A stretch of DNA of 64,000 nucleotides from Synergistes jonesii (GTDB lineage: Bacteria > Synergistota > Synergistia > Synergistales > Synergistaceae), in contig NZ_JMKI01000016.1 of assembly GCF_000712295.1 (NCBI RefSeq), positions 1-64,000 on the forward strand, in the 5' to 3' direction. Within the stretch, counting starts at the first letter, position 1; each line of letters opens with the position of its first letter. The position numbers were made by a program, and so were the translations under genes. Below the pieces are notes generated by a model. That model made no database searches. It saw nothing but the letters and a program-made list of their open reading frames with translations, and was not told the origin of the DNA. This document shows positions 5,392-42,668 of this stretch, one piece after another.

Positions 5392-6837
5392 CTACCTCGT
5401 TTTGACGCCGGCGTACTCTTCGAGCTTGCCTGTGAGCTTCACGCAGTCGTTGATGAGCTGGCGCGGCGACGTGCCGCCGCGGAGCAGCTCAAGCCAGCCT
5501 TCGCCCTTCTCGCTGAGGATTGCAGGTTTGTCGGCCCCGAGCAGCTGCGTGCCGGCCTGCGGCCAGAAATACCCGCCGTTTTCCTGGCGGCCCTGGAGCA
5601 GGAAACGGATGTCCCCGCTTTCCATCGCCTTGTAGAGGTCGACGCCTTTCTCGTTCTGATAGACGGCGACCGCGGAACAGATGCCGGCGTCGTCCTTGCG
5701 CTGCCGGTTGATGATGAGGCCGCATACCGTGTCTTTGAATTCCGTCATGAAATTGAAATCTCCCTGGGAGTCGCCGGCTCCAAAGATCGGGCCGCGCCCG
5801 TTGTAGAGCGGAGCGATGATCTTGACCACGGTCTCCGACTTGCCGACGCCCTGCGTCTGCGCATGAAAATCATAATCATACTCCGGCAGGTAAACGCCGT
5901 CTTTGATTTTATAGGTCATAGCGACGACGTCGCGGACCCCCGCGAGCCCCCAGCAGCGCAGCAGCGCGCGGATGGTCTGAACGGGGGAGGCTGAATTGAT
6001 CCACACATCTATTCCATTCGCGTCCAGCTTCCTGATAAGCTCGCGCATCTCGTCGGAGACTCCGGTGGAGAGCCTGAAGCCCACGCTTACCGGACCGCAG
6101 ATGCTCCTATATCCCTTCGGGCTCTCCCATTTGCCCTTAGTCCAGTTTTCCGGGGCCTTCTTTCCGTACTCGGTGTAGAATTTGTGCGACTCGTATGCGA
6201 GCCGTTCCGCCTCCGCCGGCGTCATGCAGGCCATGTGATAGCCGACCCATGGGTATGAGACGGAGACGCTGTAGTTGTCCCCTATAGCGTCGTACATCAA
6301 ACGTATCTTCGCAGCGAATTCTTTCCAGTCGTCGCCTGAGATCCACTCTGATTTTTTAGCGGCTCTCGAGGAGTCGGGCGCGACGTAGCCCTTAGCGCAG
6401 AGCTTCCGGTACGCTGCGCTCACATCCTTGGCGAACTCGGCTATCGTATGACCTCCGTAGTCTTTGCCGAGATCTTTATTGACATCGGGGATGCCGGTAG
6501 TGAGGATATCGTACATGTCCTCCGGCCTGACGGCGTAGCGGAGGTTTTCCGCCTGGAAAATCAGCAGCTGTTCCTGAACGTCGGTCAGCGAGATGGTATT
6601 GTCGCAGTCGAAAACCGCGTACGGCCTTATCTCGGGATTGTAGCTTTTGCTGTTTCTTCCGTACGCGTCGAAAAGCTGATTGATGACGTATTTGACGTTA
6701 GGCTCCCAGCCTTCGCCCGTCAGGTACTGCGTAGCCCTGCTCGAGTATGGCTCCGGCGCCTCGGTGCCCGACGCCGGGGCAAAAGACAGTACGAGCGCTA
6801 ACAGCGCAAATAAGAAGATTTTGGAAATCCTTTTCAC
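5392..6837 (-). CDS. Exported HAD-superfamily phosphatase
   Basis: The product of 481 residues starts at GTG 6837, seven bases after GGAGG; the longer reading to 6894 would bury the signal peptide. Residues 1-25 (VKRISKIFLFALLALVLSF...) form a typical signal peptide, so the enzyme should be periplasmic. HAD motif I is FDCDNTISLTD, unusual in replacing the usual DxDxT with DCDNT; a late FGAGDSQGDFNFM fits motif IV. The large insertion between them suggests a phosphoserine-phosphatase-like cap. The substrate is unknown. It is separated from the Cof-type gene by 76 bases and both read left, so they may share a transcript. Confidence 0.85.
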   Translation of the reverse strand: MKRISKIFLFALLALVLSFAPASGTEAPEPYSSRATQYLTGEGWEPNVKYVINQLFDAYGRNSKSYNPEIRPYAVFDCDNTISLTDVQEQLLIFQAENLRYAVRPEDMYDILTTGIPDVNKDLGKDYGGHTIAEFAKDVSAAYRKLCAKGYVAPDSSRAAKKSEWISGDDWKEFAAKIRLMYDAIGDNYSVSVSYPWVGYHMACMTPAEAERLAYESHKFYTEYGKKAPENWTKGKWESPKGYRSICGPVSVGFRLSTGVSDEMRELIRKLDANGIDVWINSASPVQTIRALLRCWGLAGVRDVVAMTYKIKDGVYLPEYDYDFHAQTQGVGKSETVVKIIAPLYNGRGPIFGAGDSQGDFNFMTEFKDTVCGLIINRQRKDDAGICSAVAVYQNEKGVDLYKAMESGDIRFLLQGRQENGGYFWPQAGTQLLGADKPAILSEKGEGWLELLRGGTSPRQLINDCVKLTGKLEEYAGVKTR

Positions 6838-6913
6838 AAGTAATTCCTCCAATTGTTTTTTAATTAAGCCCGGAGGCTCTTTTATATCCGTCACCGACTG
6901 CGTCCATTTTCAT

Positions 6914-7872: not shown

Positions 7873-8319
7873 TTAAGCCAGCTCGGCCCAGTTAGCCGGA
7901 TAGACGAAGTATGCGTAGCGGGCCTTGTGCGGCGTCTGGAAGTGGATATGGCTGTTCTTCGGTATATAGATTATATCGCCCGGCCCCGCCGAGATGACGC
8001 GCCCCTCTATCTCTATTTCAAGGACGCCCTCAAGGACGAGGTCGTATTCGTCATACGTCAGCGTCCATTCAAGGCTCGAGTTGTCGAGCTCCATTATGCC
8101 TGCTCCCATCCGCGGCGCCTCTTCAAGCGTCAGTATGTCCTTTAAAGCGACGCCGTCCTTTTCAAAGCGCTCGCACTTTACGGTATCCGTTTTGACCATG
8201 ATTATCCCGCTCGGGTCGACCTTTTTAACGAAGTCTTCCCGCCCCGCCGCCATGGTTTGCTCTATTACTTTGGCAACTATCTGTCTTATAAGCTCTTCAC
8301 TTACGTTCACGTTATACAC
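7873..8319 (-). CDS. eutQ: EutQ-like cupin acetate kinase-family protein, short form
   Basis: The 148 residues correspond to the C-terminal cupin of EutQ, which in Salmonella is needed for anaerobic ethanolamine growth and has acetate kinase activity. The cupin core is visible as EWTLTYDEYDLVLEGVLEIEIEGRVISAGPGDIIYIP. The usual N-terminal domain of about 90 residues is absent; a matching domain is encoded separately at 11850-12143. The first 25 residues (SEELIRQIVAKVIEQTM) form an amphipathic helix like a microcompartment targeting peptide. The GTG start at 8319 is uncertain; a second GTG lies three codons downstream. It is the last gene of the eut operon. Confidence 0.92.
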   Translation of the reverse strand: MYNVNVSEELIRQIVAKVIEQTMAAGREDFVKKVDPSGIIMVKTDTVKCERFEKDGVALKDILTLEEAPRMGAGIMELDNSSLEWTLTYDEYDLVLEGVLEIEIEGRVISAGPGDIIYIPKNSHIHFQTPHKARYAYFVYPANWAELA

Positions 8320-8346: not shown

Positions 8347-9570
8347 CTATTTCTTGGCGCTCTCTATTTTCGAAAGGAGCTTCGGCGAGAGGAAAGAAGC
8401 GAGCACCACGGCCGTGATACCGGCAACCAGCTTGCCGACGACTACGGGGAATATCATATCCGGGTTGTTGCCCGCGGTGAAGCCGAGGTGGTCGCCGAAT
8501 ACGAAGGCCGCCGATACCGCGAAGGCCACGTTCAGCAGTTTGCCTTTAGGATTCATATCGCCGAGGATATTGAACATGGCGATGTTGTTCGCCAGGTTCG
8601 CGACCATGCCGGCGGAGCCGGTCTCGTTCATGCCGAGAGCGCCGCCCACCTTTTCCAGCGCTTTGCCGAAGGTCCTCGTTATCCACTTGACCATGGGGAA
8701 AGCGCCGATGAGGACGATGGCGATCTGACCGCAGACCAGAAGGCCGCTTTCAAGCGGCACTACTCCGTCATTCTTCTCTGGGTCGACCATGATGTCGAAC
8801 AGCGGGAAGCGGATGCCGGTGAGGTATTCAAATACGGCTATCGCCGTAAATATCGTGATGAGTATCGTGACGGCGGTCCCGAATTTGTTGAAGCCGCGAA
8901 TCATCGCGTCCGTGGCGAACCACAGGCCGATACAGATGAGGCCGGCGACGATGATGACGGGGATGAGGTTCACAAGTATGGTCCCCATGCTGATCTTATA
9001 CGGCGTCATATTCATTACGAGACCTCCGGCGATGCAGCCCAGCGGTATGGTAATCAGCCCGGCGAGCGTGCCGGCGCCGAGGTAAGGACGGTCCTCCGGC
9101 TTGATTATCGAAAGCGCGACGGGAATCGTAAAGACGATGGTCGGCCCCATCATCGTGCCGAGTATGAGCCCCGAGAAATTTCCTACCGCTTTGTCGGCCG
9201 CAAGCTGCATGGCGAGCGGATAGCCGCCCATGTCGCACGCCAGCAGCGTAGTGGCGAACATGGAGGCGTCAGCGCCGACAAGGCTGTACAGCGGGACTAT
9301 TATAGGCTTGAGCATTATAGCCAGCACCGGCGCGGCAGCGACGACGCCGGCCATCGCGATGGCCAGCGGCCCCATCGCGTTGAAGCCGTTGTCGAACTCT
9401 TCGCCGTAGCCGAGTTTGTTGCCGCGTATTTTATCTATCGCGCCCACTATCATGAATATCGTCATGATAAAAACGATGACCGAATTGATCGAAAGGTTTG
9501 ACACCCACGCGCCGAAGCTCTCGGTAAAAACCTTGGTGTTGCACAGGTTGTCAATTAATTCCTGAAACAT
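8347..9570 (-). CDS. eutH: Ethanolamine permease EutH
   Basis: A 407-residue inner-membrane protein, the usual EutH length, with about ten to eleven hydrophobic segments. EutH lets protonated or uncharged ethanolamine enter when external levels are low. Matching stretches include GGYPLAMQLA near residue 115, LGTMMGPTIVFTIP and NNIAMFNILGDMNPKGK. The start follows AGGAGGAG with seven bases. Its place near the end of the operon, between the PduT-like shell gene and eutQ, supports the call. Confidence 0.95.
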   Translation of the reverse strand: MFQELIDNLCNTKVFTESFGAWVSNLSINSVIVFIMTIFMIVGAIDKIRGNKLGYGEEFDNGFNAMGPLAIAMAGVVAAAPVLAIMLKPIIVPLYSLVGADASMFATTLLACDMGGYPLAMQLAADKAVGNFSGLILGTMMGPTIVFTIPVALSIIKPEDRPYLGAGTLAGLITIPLGCIAGGLVMNMTPYKISMGTILVNLIPVIIVAGLICIGLWFATDAMIRGFNKFGTAVTILITIFTAIAVFEYLTGIRFPLFDIMVDPEKNDGVVPLESGLLVCGQIAIVLIGAFPMVKWITRTFGKALEKVGGALGMNETGSAGMVANLANNIAMFNILGDMNPKGKLLNVAFAVSAAFVFGDHLGFTAGNNPDMIFPVVVGKLVAGITAVVLASFLSPKLLSKIESAKK

Positions 9571-18952: not shown

Positions 18953-20323
18953 CTATCTGCTCAGGAATACGGAAGCGTCTCCGGCCAGCGGAGTCAGCTT
19001 TCCATTCTCGGAGAAGCCCATCTTTTCGAGCCACTCGTCAAATTCTTTTATCGGGCGCAGACCAAAGACCTCGCGCAGCGAAGCGGCCTCGTGGAAGCCC
19101 GTGCACTGGTACATGAGCATGCAGTCGTCTCCCTGGGGGACGCCCATGACATAGTTGCAGCCGGCCGCGACAAGAAGCGTGGCCAGATTTTCAATGTCGT
19201 TCTGGTCGGCCTTCATATGGTTCGTGTAGCAAGCATCGCAGCCCATTGGGATTCCCGTCAGTTTACCCATAAAATGGTCTTCAAGTCCGGCTCGGATAAC
19301 CTGCTTTGAGTCGTACAGATATTCCGGGCCGATGAATCCGACTACCGTGTTGACCAAATAGGGTTGGTAACGCTTCGCAAATCCATAGCAGCGCGCCTCC
19401 ATCGTAAGCTGGTCCCATCCGTTATGCGCGTCCGACGAAAGCTCTGAGCCCTGCCCCGTCTCGAAGTACATGACATTGGGGCCGGTACTGCTGCTGCGGT
19501 GCAGCATCATATCCCTGCCCTCGTCGAGCATCTGGGAGGTAAGCCCGAAGGCTTCGTTTCCCTTTTGGGAGCCGGCTACGGACTGGAACATGAGCCCTAT
19601 CGGAGCGTTGAATTTCTTAATCGCCTCCGTCTGAGTGGTAACGTGCGCCAAAACGCAGACCTGCGTCGGCACCTCCCATTTGTTTCTGAAATCTTCCAGC
19701 ATATGCAGGATGCGCGCCACGCTCTCGACCGAATCGTCGACCGGGTTGACGCCGATGACCGCGTCCCCGCAACCGAGGCTCAGCCCTTCCATCGTCGAGG
19801 CGATGATCCCCTTGGGGTCGTCGGTCGTGTGATTCGGCTGCAGACGCGAGGAGAATGTGCCTGGCAGCCCTATCGTGGTGTTGCAGTGAGCCGAGACCCT
19901 GATCTTCTTCGCAGCGTAGACAAGGTCAAGATTGCTCATCAGCTTGCAGACGGCCGCCACCATTTCGCTCGTGATCCCTCTCGAAGCGTGTCTGATCATC
20001 CGCGGCGTCGTCGTCTCGCTCAGTATCCATTCTCTGAACTCGGAGACCGTCATGTTCTTGATGCCGTCATAAATCGTCTCGTTGACGGCGTCCTGAATGA
20101 TTCTGGTCACTTCGTCTTCTTCGTACGGTACGGCCGGCGTGTTGCGTAGTTCTTCCAGAGTAACCTCCGACAGAACGACCTTGGCGGCGACTCTTTCTTC
20201 CGCCGATTCCGCGGCGATGCCGGCAAGCCTGTCGCCGGACTTCTCTTCATTCGCCTTGGCCATTACCTCGCGGAGAGATTTGAATTCGTAGTCATGGCCA
20301 AAAAGCCTGGTTTTTAATTTCAT
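18953..20323 (-). CDS. eutB: Ethanolamine ammonia-lyase large subunit EutB
   Basis: The catalytic (alpha) subunit of the B12-dependent ammonia-lyase, 456 residues, close to the usual 453. The substrate and cofactor regions are visible in RVSAHCNTTIGLPGTFSSRLQPNHTTDD, LSLGCGDAVIGVNPVDDS and MYFETGQGSELSSDAHNGWDQLTMEARCYGF. The start ATG 20323 follows GAGAGGTGAGAG. It lies 41 bases downstream of eutA, the reactivase. A 33-codon stub of another eutB is found upstream of the operon promoter at 26279-26380. Confidence 0.98.
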   Translation of the reverse strand: MKLKTRLFGHDYEFKSLREVMAKANEEKSGDRLAGIAAESAEERVAAKVVLSEVTLEELRNTPAVPYEEDEVTRIIQDAVNETIYDGIKNMTVSEFREWILSETTTPRMIRHASRGITSEMVAAVCKLMSNLDLVYAAKKIRVSAHCNTTIGLPGTFSSRLQPNHTTDDPKGIIASTMEGLSLGCGDAVIGVNPVDDSVESVARILHMLEDFRNKWEVPTQVCVLAHVTTQTEAIKKFNAPIGLMFQSVAGSQKGNEAFGLTSQMLDEGRDMMLHRSSSTGPNVMYFETGQGSELSSDAHNGWDQLTMEARCYGFAKRYQPYLVNTVVGFIGPEYLYDSKQVIRAGLEDHFMGKLTGIPMGCDACYTNHMKADQNDIENLATLLVAAGCNYVMGVPQGDDCMLMYQCTGFHEAASLREVFGLRPIKEFDEWLEKMGFSENGKLTPLAGDASVFLSR

Positions 20324-24817: not shown

Positions 24818-25951
24818 TTACACCAGATACCTTCCGCAGAAAGCGCCGCGATAGATATGGAGTATATCTTCCCTTTTGCTGTCGGTCGGGTTGGACGCGC
24901 GGCAGGCATCCTCCATCGCGGCATCCGCCAGCCTGCCCAGCTTCGCTTCGAATTCATCTCTGCCAATGCCAGCCGCTCCGATGGAGGTCGGTATATTTAT
25001 CTTGCCTATAAGGCTGCGTATGCTTCTGATAACGCTGAGCGCCGCCGGGCGCAGCGCCGACGTATCCAAGTCAAGGAAGGAGGCTATTTGCGCATAACGC
25101 TCGGCGGCCGGCGTCAACTTCGTGGTGCAGCCGGCATTGAACATCATAACATAAGGAAGGAGGATGCCGTTGGCGCGTCCGTGGGGGATGTGAAAGACCG
25201 CGCCCAACGCATGGGCCATAGCGTGATTCAGCCCCAATCCGGCGTTGCTGAACGCAACTCCGGCCATACAGGAGGCGTTATGCATAGCCTGACGCGCGTC
25301 GTAATCGTCAGGCTTTAAATAAACGGTATGAAGGTTGCCGCAGACAAGTTTTATCGCCTTCTCCGCCATCGCGTCGGAGAAATCTGTGTGTCCCTTGGAA
25401 ACAAAAGCTTCTACGGCGTGAGTGAGCACGTCGATTCCGGTATCTGCGGTAACTGAAGGAGGAACCGACATCACCAGCGACGCGTCGAGTATCGCGGCGT
25501 CGGGGAGAAGAAGATCGCTCGTGAGAGGATATTTAACCATTTTCTCAGCGTCGGTGATGACGGAATAGTTGCTCACCTCGGAGCCGGTGCCGCTTGTGGT
25601 GGGTATTATCGCCAAAAAGCAGTCGCCGATGCGTTCTTTCCCAAAGAAGCGTATAGCCTTTGCGACATCTATCACAGAGCCTCCGCCGAACGCCACTATA
25701 CAGTCTGGGCGGAACGACGCCGCCTCTTTCACTCCGGCGGCGATGATATGAGTGTCGGGATCCGGCTTCACCCCGGAGAAGATCAGGGAGTCTCCGCCGA
25801 CTTCGTCGACGGCCTCGGTAATATAACGCACTTTTTTACTTGCGCGCATAAACTCGTCCGTTACGATAAAGAACCTCTTTAGGCCGTTAAGCACAGCCAC
25901 AAGGGTACCCGGCCCCATATAAATCTTCGGTCCAAGATTAAAAACGCCCAT
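24818..25951 (-). CDS. eutG: EutG iron-containing alcohol dehydrogenase
   Basis: A 377-residue group III (Fe-dependent) alcohol dehydrogenase that reduces acetaldehyde to ethanol and recycles NAD+ in the compartment. The NAD-binding GGGSVIDVAKAI is near residue 95, the family signature TTSGTGSEVSNYSVIT near 140 and metal-ligand region ALDLNHAMAHALGAVFHIPHGRAN near 255-275 (the text reads GLGLNHAMAHALG). It is the first gene of the operon, 111 bases from the predicted transcription start, with a terminator in its leader. No targeting helix is obvious at either end. Confidence 0.95.
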   Translation of the reverse strand: MGVFNLGPKIYMGPGTLVAVLNGLKRFFIVTDEFMRASKKVRYITEAVDEVGGDSLIFSGVKPDPDTHIIAAGVKEAASFRPDCIVAFGGGSVIDVAKAIRFFGKERIGDCFLAIIPTTSGTGSEVSNYSVITDAEKMVKYPLTSDLLLPDAAILDASLVMSVPPSVTADTGIDVLTHAVEAFVSKGHTDFSDAMAEKAIKLVCGNLHTVYLKPDDYDARQAMHNASCMAGVAFSNAGLGLNHAMAHALGAVFHIPHGRANGILLPYVMMFNAGCTTKLTPAAERYAQIASFLDLDTSALRPAALSVIRSIRSLIGKINIPTSIGAAGIGRDEFEAKLGRLADAAMEDACRASNPTDSKREDILHIYRGAFCGRYLV

Positions 25952-25973: not shown

Positions 25974-26053
25974 AAAACAAAAAAGCGCCCTTGCCTAAAA
26001 GCAAGAACGCTACATCACATCCGCACAAATGTCTCTGCTACGTCACAGAAACA
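25974..26053 (-). promoter_or_regulatory. Dual-hairpin/terminator leader before eutG (EutV antitermination site)
   Basis: In leftward RNA order: P1 at 26053-26030, stem TGTTTCTGT/GCAGAGACA with hexaloop GACGTA; seven bases; P2 at 26022-26005, stem GGATGT/GCGTTC with hexaloop GATGTA, a weaker stem with three wobble pairs; then a terminator at 26011-25984, AGCGTTCTTGC/GCAAGGGCGCT around TTTTAG, ending in T6 and further T runs. Again the P2 right arm (26010-26005) is part of the terminator's left arm. Loop pair and geometry match the eutA leader. Confidence 0.82.
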
Positions 26054-26068
26054 CCACTACACGGAATG

Positions 26069-26096
26069 ATTATACTTGGTCGGTGCTTTTTGTCAA
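26069..26096 (-). promoter_or_regulatory. Promoter of the eut operon
   Basis: Leftward TTGACA (26096-26091), a 16-base spacer and TATAAT (26074-26069): both boxes are full consensus. Initiation is expected near 26062, giving a leader of about 111 bases. Such a strong promoter makes sense if control is by antitermination rather than by initiation. The stretch 26097-26207 shows no gene. Confidence 0.88.
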
Positions 26097-26207
26097 GATT
26101 TTTCTGTCGCGTGTCGTTGCGCCTGTGTCGCTGCTTCCAATTGTCGCCGTCGAGCGATGACGTCAGCGCATAAATGTTATGAGAAATATCGCGCGCGCAA
26201 AAAAGAT

Positions 26208-26279
26208 AACGGCGGAGCGATGAAGCGGCTATGCCGTTCAAACGGTATTTTATATGCCTTACGCAAACTATAGAAGCAT
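26208..26279. repeat. 72-bp dispersed repeat, copy 2
   Basis: It pairs with 5134-5205, with about 60 of 72 bases identical and no gaps. The conserved AACGGC...GCCGTT hairpin (26208-26237) reads leftward into a T-rich run. Its right edge is the exact point where the eutB stub ends, and its left edge is about 110 bases before the eut promoter. Confidence 0.7.
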
Positions 26280-26380
26280 CATGCGGTTACCACAGAGCGT
26301 TCTTCGTTAGCCTTGCCAAGAACATCCTTCGCGTCGTAAAAACTATAGGTACGACCGTAGAGTTTTGTTTTTAGAATCAT
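26279..26380 (-). pseudogene. eutB: 5' stub of a second eutB
   Basis: Leftward from ATG 26380 the frame reads MILKTKLYGRTYSFYDAKD, VLGKANEERS, then four unrelated residues and a stop at 26279. The first 30 residues align with the intact EutB start (MKLKTRLFGHDYEFKSLRE, VMAKANEEKS). It is the N-terminus of a different, more A/T-rich eutB allele, cut where the 72-bp repeat begins. It shares no long DNA identity with the intact gene, so it is not a recent partial duplication. Confidence 0.8.
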
Positions 26381-26384
26381 ATGC

Positions 26385-26495
26385 TTACATTCCAAAGATT
26401 TTTGGCAATATAAGTTTCGGCAGTGTTAGAGAGAGTGCAGGCCAGTATGTAGTGACTACCAACGTCGGTACTTAAGCAAAAATAATAAGTATCAT
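26385..26495 (-). pseudogene. C-terminal relic of a TRAP large permease (DctM)
   Basis: Leftward, 26495-26385 reads MILIIFA-stop-VPTLVVTTYWPAL, then SLTLPKLILPKIFGM and a stop. It aligns with the end of the DctM at 38603-39943 (FGWIPVLIVTTYVPAL, SLFLPRLILG); the internal stop replaces the conserved Trp. The stop lies four bases before the eutB stub, so the two were once neighbours in an operon. Confidence 0.72.
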
Positions 26496-26508
26496 GATAG
26501 GGAGTTTT

Positions 26509-26872
26509 CTATTTCACTGAATTAACGAGCTGCGGCATGGTATCTTTGCCAATATTCTTTGTAAATTTAGACCATGTTTTAGCTTTTACCTGGCTTACGT
26601 ATACAGTAAGTTGTTTGTCATTCAGCTTAATTATCTCTACAATTTTTGAAGAAATACGACTGTGGACCGAAAACCTTTGGAAGATCTTTATAATCCTTTG
26701 CTAAGGTACGGTATGCTAAAAACCAGAATTTTTTGCAAAATGGCGGCACATCAAGCGTGATATTCGCATAAATATCTTCTTTCGACGGGTTACAGGAGAA
26801 CAGGCAATTTCTTAATACTATTATACAAAAAAGTCCGCGACAAAACAGCGCTTGAGCCCGTTTGGATGACAA
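26509..26872 (-). pseudogene. Frameshifted small gene of unknown function
   Basis: The leftward frame from 26872 runs through ITLDVPPFCKKFWFLAYRTL and KDLPKVFGPQSYFF, and stops at 26627. A second frame continues from the A-run near 26637 as SSKIVEIIKLNDKQLTVYVS, WSKFTKNIGKDTMPQLVN and stops at 26509. Joined, they give about 120 residues, possibly with an N-terminal membrane or lipoprotein-like segment (FCIIVLRNCLFSC). I do not recognise the family. The low GC sets it apart from the eut genes. Confidence 0.5.
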
Positions 26873-27194
26873 TACTCCGGCATGCCTCCGCCTTTCTTTC
26901 GGAGGAAGACTATTTTACTGTATGGCACTTTTTAAAATACCATTTTGAAGCTTGACAATCCACACCATATTAATTAAGGTATACTTATTAAGATTAATAA
27001 ATATTTTATACAAGAAAGTGTGCGTTAAGTATATTGGGAATTATTAAATGAGCCACAGTATGGTTTGAAAAATCGGCAAAGTGCGTTGGGCAGGCGGGTA
27101 TAAAGCCGATGGATATCTAAATCATAGCAAAAAGGTCTAAAAATAACCTTAGCGAATCAGAGACAGTAAATCCACAAGAAAGAAGTGATCAACG
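26873..27194. other. Gene-free AT-rich stretch
   Basis: No coding signal in any frame. A TTGACA near 26955 and TATACT near 26983 are too far apart (22 bases) for a standard promoter. The AT-rich ATTAATTAAGGTATACTTATT region resembles part of the site upstream of the GntR gene (ATATTAAGGTAT near 36752). The stretch probably marks the left edge of the low-GC island. Confidence 0.4.
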
Positions 27195-27407
27195 ATGTTC
27201 AATCCGACCGTCAACACAAAATTTATCGGGCTTTTCGGCAATCCGCTGGGGCAAAGCGCGGCGGCTTATCTGCACAACAGCGTCTATCAGGCGCTGGACA
27301 TGGACTGCTTTTACGCGCCGTACGAAATCGAAATAGAGGACATCGAGCATGTCGTAAAGAATCTCAAGAGATTCCATTTCGGCGGCGCCTCTGTGACGAG
27401 TGCTTAG
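27195..27407 (+). pseudogene. N-terminal stub of a shikimate dehydrogenase-like gene
   Basis: The first 70 residues (NTKFIGLFGNPLGQSAAAYL, HNSVYQALDMDCFYAPYEIE) are the substrate-binding domain start of AroE/YdiB enzymes, with the GNPLGQS motif. After FHFGGASVT, where the family has the conserved N-V-T-x-P-x-K, it reaches S-A-stop. The NADP domain and most of the rest are gone. Within the low-GC island, it may have been the first gene of the quinate/shikimate-type cluster that follows. Confidence 0.78.
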
Positions 27408-27501
27408 CCGCTCCAGGAAATACTTCGCGGAGCACGGCATCGTATAGTGGTTTTGGACGGAGCCATATGGATTAAAAACTTATAAATTTGAGGTGAATTT
27501 C

Positions 27502-38602: not shown

Positions 38603-39943
38603 TTAATTGACACCCAATATGAGCCGCGGTAGGAACAACGACAACGCAGGGACATATGTCGTAACGATCAATACAGGAATCCAGCCGAAAACAATGAAGC
38701 ACAGCGTAGGCCTTAGCATTTCATTTATCGGCGCCTTTGATATACTGCTTGAAAGGTAGAGAAGCGGCGCGCATGGAGGCGTTATATTGCCGAGCCCAAG
38801 GTTCACAGCGACGATTGCAGCGAAATGCACCGGATTCACCCCTATCTCCTGTATAATCGGGATAAGTATCGGTGTTGCAAGCACACAGGCGCTGCAGTCA
38901 TCCATCAGCATCCCCAGTACTATCATAAATATGTTCAGCATAAACAAAATCACATACTTATTTGTTGATATCGAATACAGGATTTTCAAAAGAAGCTGGG
39001 GGACGTCTTCCATGATATATATTCTGCTCAGGACGCTGCACGCAAAGAGCATAATCATAATGGCTCCGGTAGCCGTCACAGCTTCGATCATCGTATTGTA
39101 AAGACCTCTCACTGTGAGCCCCTTATAAATATACATGCCGACCGGCAGAGCATAAATTACTGATACGCCGGCTGCCTCAGTAGGCGTCATTATGCCGCTA
39201 TAAATACCTCCAAGGACAATTACAGGCATAAAGAGCGCCGGTACCGCCTCGCCAAATTTAGTGTGGAAAAAGGAGAATTTTTTTCTCTGCTTCGGAACAA
39301 CCCTATAAAAGTCTTTTTCTTTATCTTCAATATCTTTATCTGATACTACAATTATGTTTTTATTGTTGCGGAGCATGTAGCAGTTTAGAACCGCAAGCAG
39401 CGTCGTAAGGATGATCCCAGGAATGATTGTCGCAAGAAAGCTCGCAAGGACCGACTGCCCTCCCGTCCATGAGTAAAGGATCATTATCGAGCTCGGCGGA
39501 ATAAGCATTCCCAATACAGCGGTCGAAGCAAGCAAAGCGGCGCAGTGGCCTTTAGGATAGTTGGCGCGTTCAAACCTTGGGAACATAATGGAGCCAATAC
39601 ATGTCAGCGTCGCACAAGCGCTTCCCGTAACGGAACCGAATATGGCGCACGAAACAGTGGTTATGATTCCCAGCCCCCCCCTTATGCGACCAACAAAGTT
39701 TTCTACGAGCCCAATCATCTTATCCGCTATATTCCCCTTTTCCATTAGGCCTCCAGCTATTACGAACAGAGGAATGGCAAAGAGGACTGTCGTACTTATC
39801 TTATCTATGCCGTACGGGATCATAAAGCTGGGATTGACATCGCCCATAATTACAAAAAACATAGCAGAGGCGAGGAATGCATAACATACAGGGATACCAA
39901 GTATCAATGCAGCAAATAAAATCACTATTCCAATAAAAATCAT
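38603..39943 (-). CDS. TRAP transporter large permease DctM, second system
   Basis: The 446-residue permease starts at ATG 39943, preceded by GGGGG; a reading to 39982 would cross the dctQ stop. Features: TGSACATLTCIGSIMFPRF, AVLGMLIPPSSIMILYSW, GGIYSGIMTPTEAAGVSVIYALPVG and the NITPPCAPLLYL motif. The C-terminus ends FLPRLILGVN. It and the two upstream genes form a leftward TRAP operon in low-GC DNA. A relic of a related gene lies at 26385-26495. Confidence 0.94.
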   Translation of the reverse strand: MIFIGIVILFAALILGIPVCYAFLASAMFFVIMGDVNPSFMIPYGIDKISTTVLFAIPLFVIAGGLMEKGNIADKMIGLVENFVGRIRGGLGIITTVSCAIFGSVTGSACATLTCIGSIMFPRFERANYPKGHCAALLASTAVLGMLIPPSSIMILYSWTGGQSVLASFLATIIPGIILTTLLAVLNCYMLRNNKNIIVVSDKDIEDKEKDFYRVVPKQRKKFSFFHTKFGEAVPALFMPVIVLGGIYSGIMTPTEAAGVSVIYALPVGMYIYKGLTVRGLYNTMIEAVTATGAIMIMLFACSVLSRIYIMEDVPQLLLKILYSISTNKYVILFMLNIFMIVLGMLMDDCSACVLATPILIPIIQEIGVNPVHFAAIVAVNLGLGNITPPCAPLLYLSSSISKAPINEMLRPTLCFIVFGWIPVLIVTTYVPALSLFLPRLILGVN

Positions 39944-39959
39944 TTCAACATACCCCCGC

Positions 39960-40466
39960 TTATTTGCCAACTGCGTCAGCATCAGGAGAACGCCGACATG
40001 CTTCTACAAAATCACGCAAAGCATACAGCAGCATAAGAAAAAGGCCGACGCCGACAGCTGCGTACTCTCCTATTAAAGGCAGCTTCCAGACAGCCGTCAT
40101 CGGCTTGTTTTTCCACGCGTACGCGAGCATGTCTACGCTCCAGTAACAGAACGCAAACCCTATGGCAACGGTAAGTCCAGCAGCAACTACGGCAAGAAAT
40201 TTTCTGATTTTAAAGTTTTTTACCATAGTCTGCAAAATATTAGCCGTTATCTGGTCATGTTTATAACTTGCGTACGCTGCCCCCATAAAGTAAAACCATA
40301 TCGCCATAAAGACTTCGATTTCTTCAATAGCGTAAAGATCCGTCTTAAGGACATAGCGGAATATGACTCCTAAGGTAATCAACGCAGGGAGCAGAAGTCC
40401 GACAAACAGCATTACCGCTCTCTTAAATTTTAAAAGCATAGACTGTAACTTAAGAAGAATCTCCAA
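39960..40466 (-). CDS. TRAP transporter small permease DctQ, second system
   Basis: A 168-residue small permease with four hydrophobic segments, including RYVLKTDLYAIEEIEVFMAIWFYFMGAAYA with the conserved acidic pair before helix 2. It is 16 bases upstream of the dctM start (leftward) and about 115 bases from the DctP gene. The start follows GGAAGATG. Confidence 0.92.
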   Translation of the reverse strand: MEILLKLQSMLLKFKRAVMLFVGLLLPALITLGVIFRYVLKTDLYAIEEIEVFMAIWFYFMGAAYASYKHDQITANILQTMVKNFKIRKFLAVVAAGLTVAIGFAFCYWSVDMLAYAWKNKPMTAVWKLPLIGEYAAVGVGLFLMLLYALRDFVEACRRSPDADAVGK

Positions 40467-40582
40467 AGAAACATCTTCCTTTCTAAAGCGTTACTTAGCC
40501 GAACATAAGAGATTAAAACCCGGGAAAAGAATGGGGTTAGGTTCTTTTCCCGGTACGGTGATTGGAAGAAAGCCCCTAAGTA

Positions 40583-41578
40583 TTACTTTTTTGCATATTC
40601 CCCGATCAATTCCTGTGTGAGCTCTTTTCCAAGCACCTTGTCGAGTTTAGGCCACACCATCTTACGGACGTAGTCAACAGTCGGCTTCAGCTGTTCTGGC
40701 GTGATTTTGACCACTTTTATACCAGCTTCTGCAAGTTTTTTCTGATACATAATTTCTTCTTGTTCGGCAATCTTGACAGCGTTCTTGTTAATTTCGGCTA
40801 CAGTTGATTCGATGAGTTTCTGATCCGACGGGCTCAGACCATCCCACGTTTTTTTGTTAATAAGCCACTGTTCAAGCTCCGTGTAAATATTCATCGGATA
40901 ATAATATTTCACAACATCACGGAACCCGAGATAACTGTGAACCGCCGCCCCACCGTACCAACCTTCAGCAACCCCGGTCTGAAGCGCCGTGTAGAGATCT
41001 GCGTAAGGGACAGAAACGGTGCGGTAGCCCATGCTGGTCATAGTCAGCTTCGCTACGTCGTTATTCGGAATACGGCACAGCACATTTTTAGGAACTTTTG
41101 GATCAAGCGGCTTGCTGGCCTCCTTAGTCAGACCAAGGCCACCGAAGCCATCCATAAAAAACCCAAGGAACTTAATATCCATCTTGTCGTGAAAACCGCT
41201 AACCTTTTTATACATCCAGCCGTTTGGATCAAAGAGTTTATAAAGTTCATGCCAGGAAGAAACAAGATAAGGAGTAAAATATATCTGCTGTTTCTGGTCA
41301 AACTTTGGTGGAATCGTTATTAGCGCCATATCAATGGTGCCTTTGCTGACTTCTTCGTAAATAAGTGCGTAATCGCCAAGTTGACCTGCGGGATATGTTT
41401 TTACTTTGATTTTACCGCCGGTTTTCTCCTCAATGATTTTCTTAAAATTCTCCATCTGTACAGAATTCTGGTGCGCTACCGGGTTTTGTCCGGCAAGCCT
41501 AAGCGTAAGGGCTTCGGCGAATCCTACGAACGAAAGAACGTAAACCATTACCAATAATGCACAAAATTTGTTTCTCAT
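40583..41578 (-). CDS. TRAP transporter substrate-binding protein DctP, second system
   Basis: The 331-residue binding protein has a signal peptide (FCALLVMVYVLSFVGFAEA). DctP markers: GQNPVAHQNSVQMENFKKII, GKIKVKTYPAGQLGD, and QTGVAEGWYGGAAVH. The position of the usual conserved Arg of the carboxylate site is near NVLCRIPNNDVAK. With the following DctQM and the ornithine-cyclodeaminase family gene it probably handles an amino or keto acid. The substrate is not known. Confidence 0.92.
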   Translation of the reverse strand: MRNKFCALLVMVYVLSFVGFAEALTLRLAGQNPVAHQNSVQMENFKKIIEEKTGGKIKVKTYPAGQLGDYALIYEEVSKGTIDMALITIPPKFDQKQQIYFTPYLVSSWHELYKLFDPNGWMYKKVSGFHDKMDIKFLGFFMDGFGGLGLTKEASKPLDPKVPKNVLCRIPNNDVAKLTMTSMGYRTVSVPYADLYTALQTGVAEGWYGGAAVHSYLGFRDVVKYYYPMNIYTELEQWLINKKTWDGLSPSDQKLIESTVAEINKNAVKIAEQEEIMYQKKLAEAGIKVVKITPEQLKPTVDYVRKMVWPKLDKVLGKELTQELIGEYAKK

Positions 41579-41681
41579 CAGATAATCCTCCCTCTTAATA
41601 TTTTTTTACATTAAAGTGATCCAAAGCTCACACAATAGGATTGAAGAGATTGCCCCCGTCCTTTCCAGTCATTAGTTTATT

Positions 41682-42668
41682 TTAATGTTTGACCCAAGTC
41701 CCTACTTTCTTTTCGACGGCCTTAGTATAAATGAGCCTTGCCGTCATAACGTCGTTGCAGGCTATGCCCATTGGGGCTGCCGTTCTGCGTCCCTTGAGCA
41801 CCACAGGCTTTTTGCCAACGATTACTTCGCTCATCTCTGCGTATATTTCTTGCTCAGTAGGATACCCCTGGAAGTATACCCCGCCACCTTGCATATATTC
41901 ATATTGACCACGGTCGTCTATTACATAGACCGGCGCTTCTGTCATAACGTCCGCACAGAACGCAGAATCATGATCCACAGCTATGCAGAGGACATCGTTC
42001 TTGAGATATGATTTTTTAACGAAACGCTGTGGATTTGCAAGCACTGGGCAACATGTAATCACGATGTCCGCGTCCTTGCAGGCCTCTTCAATCGACTTAG
42101 CCTTAACTACTTCAAGATCGTTAAACGCCGCTCTTGCGTCAGCCTCAAGCTTGTCCAGCTGTACAGCAAGCGGATCGTACGCAGCTACGGTTCTGAGAGC
42201 TGGGAACTGCGTCTTTATAGCATGCACGCTGATGCGCCCCTGGGTGCCGGCACCTATTACCGCTAGTTTAGAGCTCTTGGGGTCAGCGAAATATTTCGCA
42301 ATGACGGCACTTGCAGCACCGGTGCGCATCGTTGTCAGATATGTGGCGTCCATTACGGAAATCATGTGTCCATCGTTTGAATCGGTAATTATAAACAGAC
42401 CGATGTTATAAGGCATATTTTTCTGCAAGTTTTCAGGGAATCCAGATATCCATTTCTCTCCACATGTATCCACGCCTCCACCTATCCAGCATGGCATAGC
42501 ATGGATGTAGCAATTTTCTCTTGGGTGGATACCTATCTTAGCCGGCATTTCTACCTTGCCCTCACCCTTAAGACGCCAACCTTCTTCAACGGCCGATATG
42601 ACATCAGCCATGGAGATATTGAGCGATATAACATCGTCCTCCGAAAGCCATAAAACTTCATTCAACAT
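41682..42668 (-). CDS. Ornithine cyclodeaminase/mu-crystallin family dehydrogenase
   Basis: A 328-residue NAD(P)-dependent enzyme. The Rossmann motif is SSKLAVIGAGTQGRISVHAI near 130; the family substrate-binding stretch is near TTMRTGAASAVIAKYFADP, with Arg and Asp candidates and a late AVDHDSAFCADVMTEAPVYVIDD. Members include ornithine cyclodeaminase, ketimine reductase and alanine dehydrogenase. First gene of the leftward TRAP operon and divergent from the CdaR-type regulator, which likely controls it. Substrate inferred to be an amino acid or imine. Confidence 0.9.
   Translation of the reverse strand: MLNEVLWLSEDDVISLNISMADVISAVEEGWRLKGEGKVEMPAKIGIHPRENCYIHAMPCWIGGGVDTCGEKWISGFPENLQKNMPYNIGLFIITDSNDGHMISVMDATYLTTMRTGAASAVIAKYFADPKSSKLAVIGAGTQGRISVHAIKTQFPALRTVAAYDPLAVQLDKLEADARAAFNDLEVVKAKSIEEACKDADIVITCCPVLANPQRFVKKSYLKNDVLCIAVDHDSAFCADVMTEAPVYVIDDRGQYEYMQGGGVYFQGYPTEQEIYAEMSEVIVGKKPVVLKGRRTAAPMGIACNDVMTARLIYTKAVEKKVGTWVKH

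Follow-up and report, generated by a model that had tools for sequence, protein, structure and literature searches.

Remnants of a TRAP transporter operon adjoining a truncated eutB upstream of the eut operon of Synergistes jonesii

The relic and the genes around it

The window, that is the whole stretch of DNA analysed here, comprises 64,000 nucleotides of Synergistes jonesii (contig NZ_JMKI01000016.1, positions 1 to 64,000). On its minus strand, taken in descending coordinates, an internal piece of dctP is followed by the end of dctP, the tail of dctM, four bases, and the start of eutB (Table 1). The dctP pieces lie upstream of the dctM tail on the same strand, arranged as in an intact TRAP operon; only dctP and dctM pieces were present among the matches at the relic, with none from dctQ. 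A full-length DctM reading frame (PF06808 / TIGR00786) is lacking, and homology to this family extends over the surviving part, the C-terminal 38 codons with an in-frame stop. The natural end of dctM is kept, the DNA being alignable to the dctM of genome G058 through the stop codon, and the four bases separate this natural stop from the eutB start codon at 26380, which is also kept. Of the EutB large subunit (PF06751), 29 N-terminal codons are left. In the relic dctQ is absent altogether, and a portion of dctP and the bulk of dctM have been lost. The initial annotation had described a DctM-like gene end, interrupted by one stop, four bases from a eutB stub, and its frame and coordinates proved correct. 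The extent that it gave stands for these two pieces but falls short of what remains, given the dctP pieces directly upstream.

Two-base-block shuffles of positions 26000-27180, each represented by its best six-frame score, served as the null. The G139 DctM tail scored 82 (shuffle mean 28, sd 3.7, maximum 43 of 300), and the G139 EutB head scored 105 (mean 27, sd 3.7, maximum 44 of 300). The corresponding values were 145 for the whole G058 DctM (mean 36, sd 3.7, maximum 56 of 200) and 99 for G058 DctP (mean 34, maximum 50 of 200). In tblastn searches the dctM remnant was 73.7% identical to G058 DctM over 38 residues (E 1.5e-10), the eutB stub 75.9% identical to G125 EutB over 29 residues (E 2e-8), and the C-terminal dctP piece 44% identical to G058 DctP over 43 residues (E 6e-6). 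With both components well above the shuffles, the relic of a dctM tail and a eutB start was confirmed as real.

A working Eut microcompartment operon that includes eutH begins directly downstream of the relic. From 25951 down it encodes, on one strand, an alcohol dehydrogenase, a BMC shell protein, EutA, EutB, EutC, further shell proteins and EutH. When the ORFs of five loci were used as queries, the distal end of the working operon yielded no remains of the old one: below 8340, matches were limited to EutQ (7873-8319) and the HAD-type protein.

Table 1. Features of the relic and of related loci in the window
Feature	Position	Strand	Evidence or remark
dctP (solute-binding protein), middle piece, in another frame than the C-terminal piece	26642..26704	-	71% over 21 residues to G058 DctP, E 1.2e-4
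dctP C-terminal remnant including stop	26509..26640	-	tblastn against G058 DctP
dctM (TRAP large permease) C-terminal remnant, last 38 codons	26385..26501	-	natural stop 26387-26385
In-frame stop codon inside the dctM remnant	26472..26474	-	frame reading
eutB start stub	26279..26380	-	homology over 29 codons (26380-26294), followed by unrelated sequence up to the stop at 26279
Iron alcohol dehydrogenase gene heading the working eut operon, immediately downstream of the relic	24818..25951	-	PF00465, PF25137
Intact eutB of the working operon, of an EutB class other than that of the stub	18953..20323	-	PF06751, E 5e-219
eutH, ethanolamine transporter of the working operon	8347..9570	-	PF04346, E 9e-134
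HAD-type phosphatase-like protein, after eutH/eutQ	5392..6894	-	relatives follow relic-type dctM in G058 and G089
Intact dctM of the sister TRAP	38603..39982	-	77% identical to the eut-linked G139 DctM
Intact dctQ of the sister TRAP	39960..40466	-	PF04290
Intact dctP of the sister TRAP, Arg147 equivalent kept	40583..41578	-	PF03480
Ornithine cyclodeaminase/mu-crystallin family gene adjoining the sister TRAP	41682..42668	-	PF02423

Several other loci in the window deserve mention. Kin of the sister TRAP (38603-42668) in G008, G043 and G153 accompany AcnX genes, in some cases together with serine dehydratase-like and RidA genes; such neighbours would fit a hydroxyproline-like substrate. The HAD-type protein, present here in a single copy, is a relative of PDB 4gxt, and its kin are found after eutH in G004, G058 and G089 as well as after the relic-type dctM in G058 and G089. 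One of the G058 relatives lies near a gene that we take to resemble phnW. The HAD-type protein is a candidate phosphoethanolamine-type phosphatase. Finally, a fragment at 26920-27475 on the plus strand, in which Pfam gave no match, matches the beginning of a G111 ORF of 321 residues with 83% DNA identity across 281 bases; this ORF is presumably shikimate-dehydrogenase-like.

Closest relatives of the lost genes

A DNA search of 52 genomes of the family with positions 26270-27200 led to G058. The intact operon of this genome and of G089 consists of genes for a CdaR-like protein, an octopine-dehydrogenase-like protein, DctP, DctQ, DctM and a HAD protein; no eutB lies beside this relic-type TRAP in either of the two genomes in which it is intact. 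The dctM tail is identical to G058 DctM at 28 of 38 residues and shares a C-terminal extension with it. When the relic tail was aligned to 19 DctMs, the scores were 148 for G058 and 143 for G089, with the next at 105. At the DNA level, the remnant agrees with G058 dctM in 80 of 114 columns, as opposed to 51 of 85 with G139 and 50 of 85 with the intact dctM of the window. The G139 DctM belongs to another branch (17/32 residues identical to the relic). A tail copied from the intact dctM at 38603-39982 was rejected as the source of the remnant on the same grounds, only 19 of 32 residues agreeing.

The residue at the column of the in-frame stop is Trp in 16 of the 19 DctMs, Tyr in G058 and G089, and a gap in one. 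Because the two closest DctMs have Tyr, the ancestral residue was probably Tyr, and the proposal that the stop replaces a conserved Trp is not borne out, even though Trp prevails among the DctMs compared.

The eutB stub was most similar to G125 (22 of 29 residues identical), followed by G101, G097 and G139 (20/29 each); the intact EutB of the window agrees at 15/29. None of these four best matches has eutA directly before eutB: in G125, G101 and G097 eutB comes first in the eut operon, and in G139 it directly follows dctM. The intact eutB of the window was dismissed as the source from which the stub was copied, its product ranking 53rd of 123 EutB-matching ORFs against the stub. A tandem eutB pair heading one eut operon, with a more divergent second copy and a single eutC, was seen at four loci elsewhere (L042, L043, L044 and L187).

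TRAP genes near eutB in other genomes

Among 180 genomes of the order, 37 carry eutB. DctM was encoded within 10 kb of eutB in four of them (G139, G144, G153 and G143), a count that may miss TRAP neighbours since flanks at many eutB loci are shorter than 10 kb, often because of contig ends. The window's own genome of 2.74 Mb contains 22 DctM genes, which corresponds to about 0.16 expected per 20 kb. Given this expectation for any 20 kb, four of 37 is no enrichment over TRAP abundance, and among the TRAP-eutB neighbours only the adjacency in G139 is striking.

G139 (Synergistaceae MAG AS09scLD_30, JAAYHA010000189.1) encodes four DctM candidates. It has the order dctQ-dctM-eutB-eutC-eutL on one strand, its dctM and eutB frames lying 51 bases apart, and is the sole case of directly adjacent dctM and eutB in the survey. 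Intact dctM-eutB neighbours, on which the initial annotation had made its reading depend, thus exist. When the named loci closest to the G139 EutB were taken (the best 80 of 113), a TRAP gene was present in the flanks of one, G139 itself. The dctP belonging to the G139 pair lies off the contig. On contig 164 of this genome (locus L197), an orphan DctP gene follows that of a B12-binding-domain protein, with no dctQM in the 3.8 kb seen; its product is most like the G144 DctP.

In the other genomes the arrangement is looser. G144 has dctPQM followed by a pduL-like gene, eutA and eutB; its EutB match starts at 6327, 2.2 kb after dctM, and the gap of 416 bases applies to the stop-to-stop eutB frame (1026 residues). 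The order in G153 is two mu-crystallin-family genes, dctPQM, AcnX, a pduL-like gene, eutA and eutB. In G143 a TRAP of a different branch precedes an alcohol dehydrogenase gene, and in G034 dctM and eutB lie 10.1 kb apart on opposite strands. At a locus of G072 (L077, 122-7888), dctPQM of the sister-TRAP branch is directly preceded by a tandem array of three aromatic amino acid lyase-like genes, of which one was Pfam-tested.

EutH was present in 27 of the 37 eutB genomes and absent from ten, although incomplete assemblies may hide it (G139, 86%; G034, 85%). Where a TRAP lies no more than about 10.2 kb from eutB, EutH was absent from four of five genomes, versus six of the 32 others (hypergeometric P 0.014, the test and the distance limit having been chosen after the data and the genomes being related). 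At a strict limit of 10 kb it was absent from three of four (P 0.052). A trade of TRAP for EutH, to which an early count of four out of four without EutH had pointed (P 0.0032), was abandoned: fuller flanks added G143, where a TRAP precedes eut and EutH is nevertheless present, and placed the opposite-strand pair of G034 at 10.1 kb, which changed the values to 0.014 and 0.052.

Origin of the relic and substrate of the lost transporter

The reading that we favour, with a probability of roughly 0.55, is that a dctP-dctQ-dctM operon running into a second eutB has decayed here and that its transporter, while alive, took up a carboxylate-bearing substrate. The TRAP would have been of the G058/G089 branch, and the eutB most like the first-in-operon EutBs of G125, G101 and G097 or the post-dctM EutB of G139. 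The last TRAP gene would have run straight into the second eutB copy, presumably within one transcription unit. Internal deletions would then have taken out the whole of dctQ together with the bulk of dctM and some of dctP, eutB would have been truncated after codon 29, and a stop would have arisen in the residual dctM, an order of events that we infer. The different, EutH-bearing eut operon now lies immediately downstream.

Against such a history stands the possible, if rather doubtful, account that the two genes never formed a unit, a decaying TRAP operon and a decaying eutB having been joined by deletions among gene fragments. Its proponents could point to the same 1.2 kb, where the G111-like fragment shows that several remains have gathered, to the relic-type TRAPs of G058 and G089, which have no eutB neighbour, and to the near-expected frequency of TRAP genes within 10 kb of eutB. 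The G139 DctM, moreover, is of another branch, and the pieces of 38 and 29 residues are too short for trees. A random join is nonetheless unlikely because the natural dctM end, with its stop, and the exact eutB start codon are both preserved, four bases apart, and the same gene order is intact in G139. The conclusion of the initial annotation that the earlier unit was therefore transporter-dctM-eutB is in keeping with a TRAP gene and a second eutB side by side and with the G139 pair. Its "therefore" is too strong, since the closest relatives have no eutB beside them and TRAP genes are no commoner near eutB than their abundance predicts. Apart from the Trp, its reading of the relic is good, and a lost transporter-lyase unit is plausible.

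As to the substrate, Arg147 of SiaP is tied to carboxylate ligands, and the ethanolamine-binding Csal_0678 is without it according to PMC4646407. In an alignment of the DctPs of the surveyed genomes, this column was Arg in 19 of 19, including the window's two, the eut-near ones of G144, G153 and G034, and both relic-type ones. None shows the loss of the Arg147 equivalent that would mark an ethanolamine TRAP of the EtoX/Csal_0678 kind, a reading by proxy, since the relic no longer contains the DctP region in which the Arg would lie. Sister TRAPs occur in modules for other substrates, together with mu-crystallin/AcnX genes (G153, G008, G043) or aromatic amino acid lyase-like genes (G072). Because of the conserved Arg and the content of these modules, a carboxylate-bearing substrate is most probably the better guess for the lost transporter, judged from its relatives; the live system would have mediated ion-coupled, binding-protein-dependent uptake of a small compound of this kind.

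The initial annotation had regarded TRAP systems as no known route for ethanolamine and a TRAP-eutB pairing as suggestive of a new importer of ethanolamine or a related amino-alcohol. The former does not hold: EtoX of Phaeobacter binds ethanolamine with a Kd of 7.9 uM (PMC10132767), and Csal_0678 is reported with ethanolamine bound (cited in PMC4646407 and PMC5812351). An importer of this kind that once fed EutBC and was replaced by EutH would draw on these precedents, on the deficit of EutH in TRAP-linked genomes (subject to the post hoc choice of test) and on the HAD phosphatase family that follows both eutH and the relic-type dctM. We consider it improbable in view of the Arg147 equivalent retained in all 19 DctPs, the other-substrate modules of the sister TRAPs, the co-occurrence of TRAP and EutH in G143, and the weaker result at the strict limit. 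Most likely the relic is a discarded transporter-lyase unit and not evidence for a new ethanolamine importer.

The Arg would accord with a lost importer of a carboxylated, opine-like ethanolamine derivative from which an octopine-dehydrogenase-like enzyme frees ethanolamine inside the cell for EutBC. Octopine_DH-family genes occur beside the G144 TRAP, beside the relic-type TRAP of G058, ahead of pduL-eutA in G034, and in the vicinity of four related TRAPs. They also accompany TRAPs for which the stretch examined contains no eut gene, and both substrate and reaction are hypothetical, so that this account is very unlikely. Its extension, no less of a long shot, would be that eut loci of some Synergistaceae and relatives are or were fed in this manner by a TRAP in place of EutH, the relic being the copy dropped when an EutH-type operon took over the same place.

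If the decayed-unit reading is correct, at least one past occurrence of the TRAP-eutB gene order joins the lone intact case. G139, G144 and G058/G089 are intact genomes in which the transporter substrate could be tested directly; should one of these systems prove to transport an ethanolamine derivative, the pathway, usually served by EutH, would gain a further means of substrate entry.

In a search drawn largely from papers outside subscription journals, no published report of an operon combining a TRAP with ethanolamine ammonia-lyase was found. A paper that mentions both eutB and dctM appears from its title to deal with the use of ectoine, a pathway in which another protein bears the name EutB. 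Within the survey, G139 resembles the relic in having dctQ-dctM directly before eutB, here intact, but differs in the branch of its DctM, in the spacing (51 versus 4 bases) and in its dctP lying off the contig. The G058/G089 operon encodes the closest intact kin of the lost DctM and DctP, but adjoins no eutB.

Among known systems, EtoVWX of Phaeobacter sp. MED193 and Csal_0678 of Chromohalobacter salexigens are alike in linking a TRAP to ethanolamine catabolism. EtoVWX feeds the gamma-glutamyl ethanolamide route and not EutBC (PMC10132767), and Csal_0678 is reported to be without the Arg147 equivalent (PMC4646407), which is kept in all DctPs considered here. The isethionate TRAP with IseG, although it involves a glycyl radical lyase and a sulfonate substrate and no EutB, offers a parallel (PMC6453916): a TRAP operon beside lyase and microcompartment genes that convert a C2 compound to acetaldehyde.
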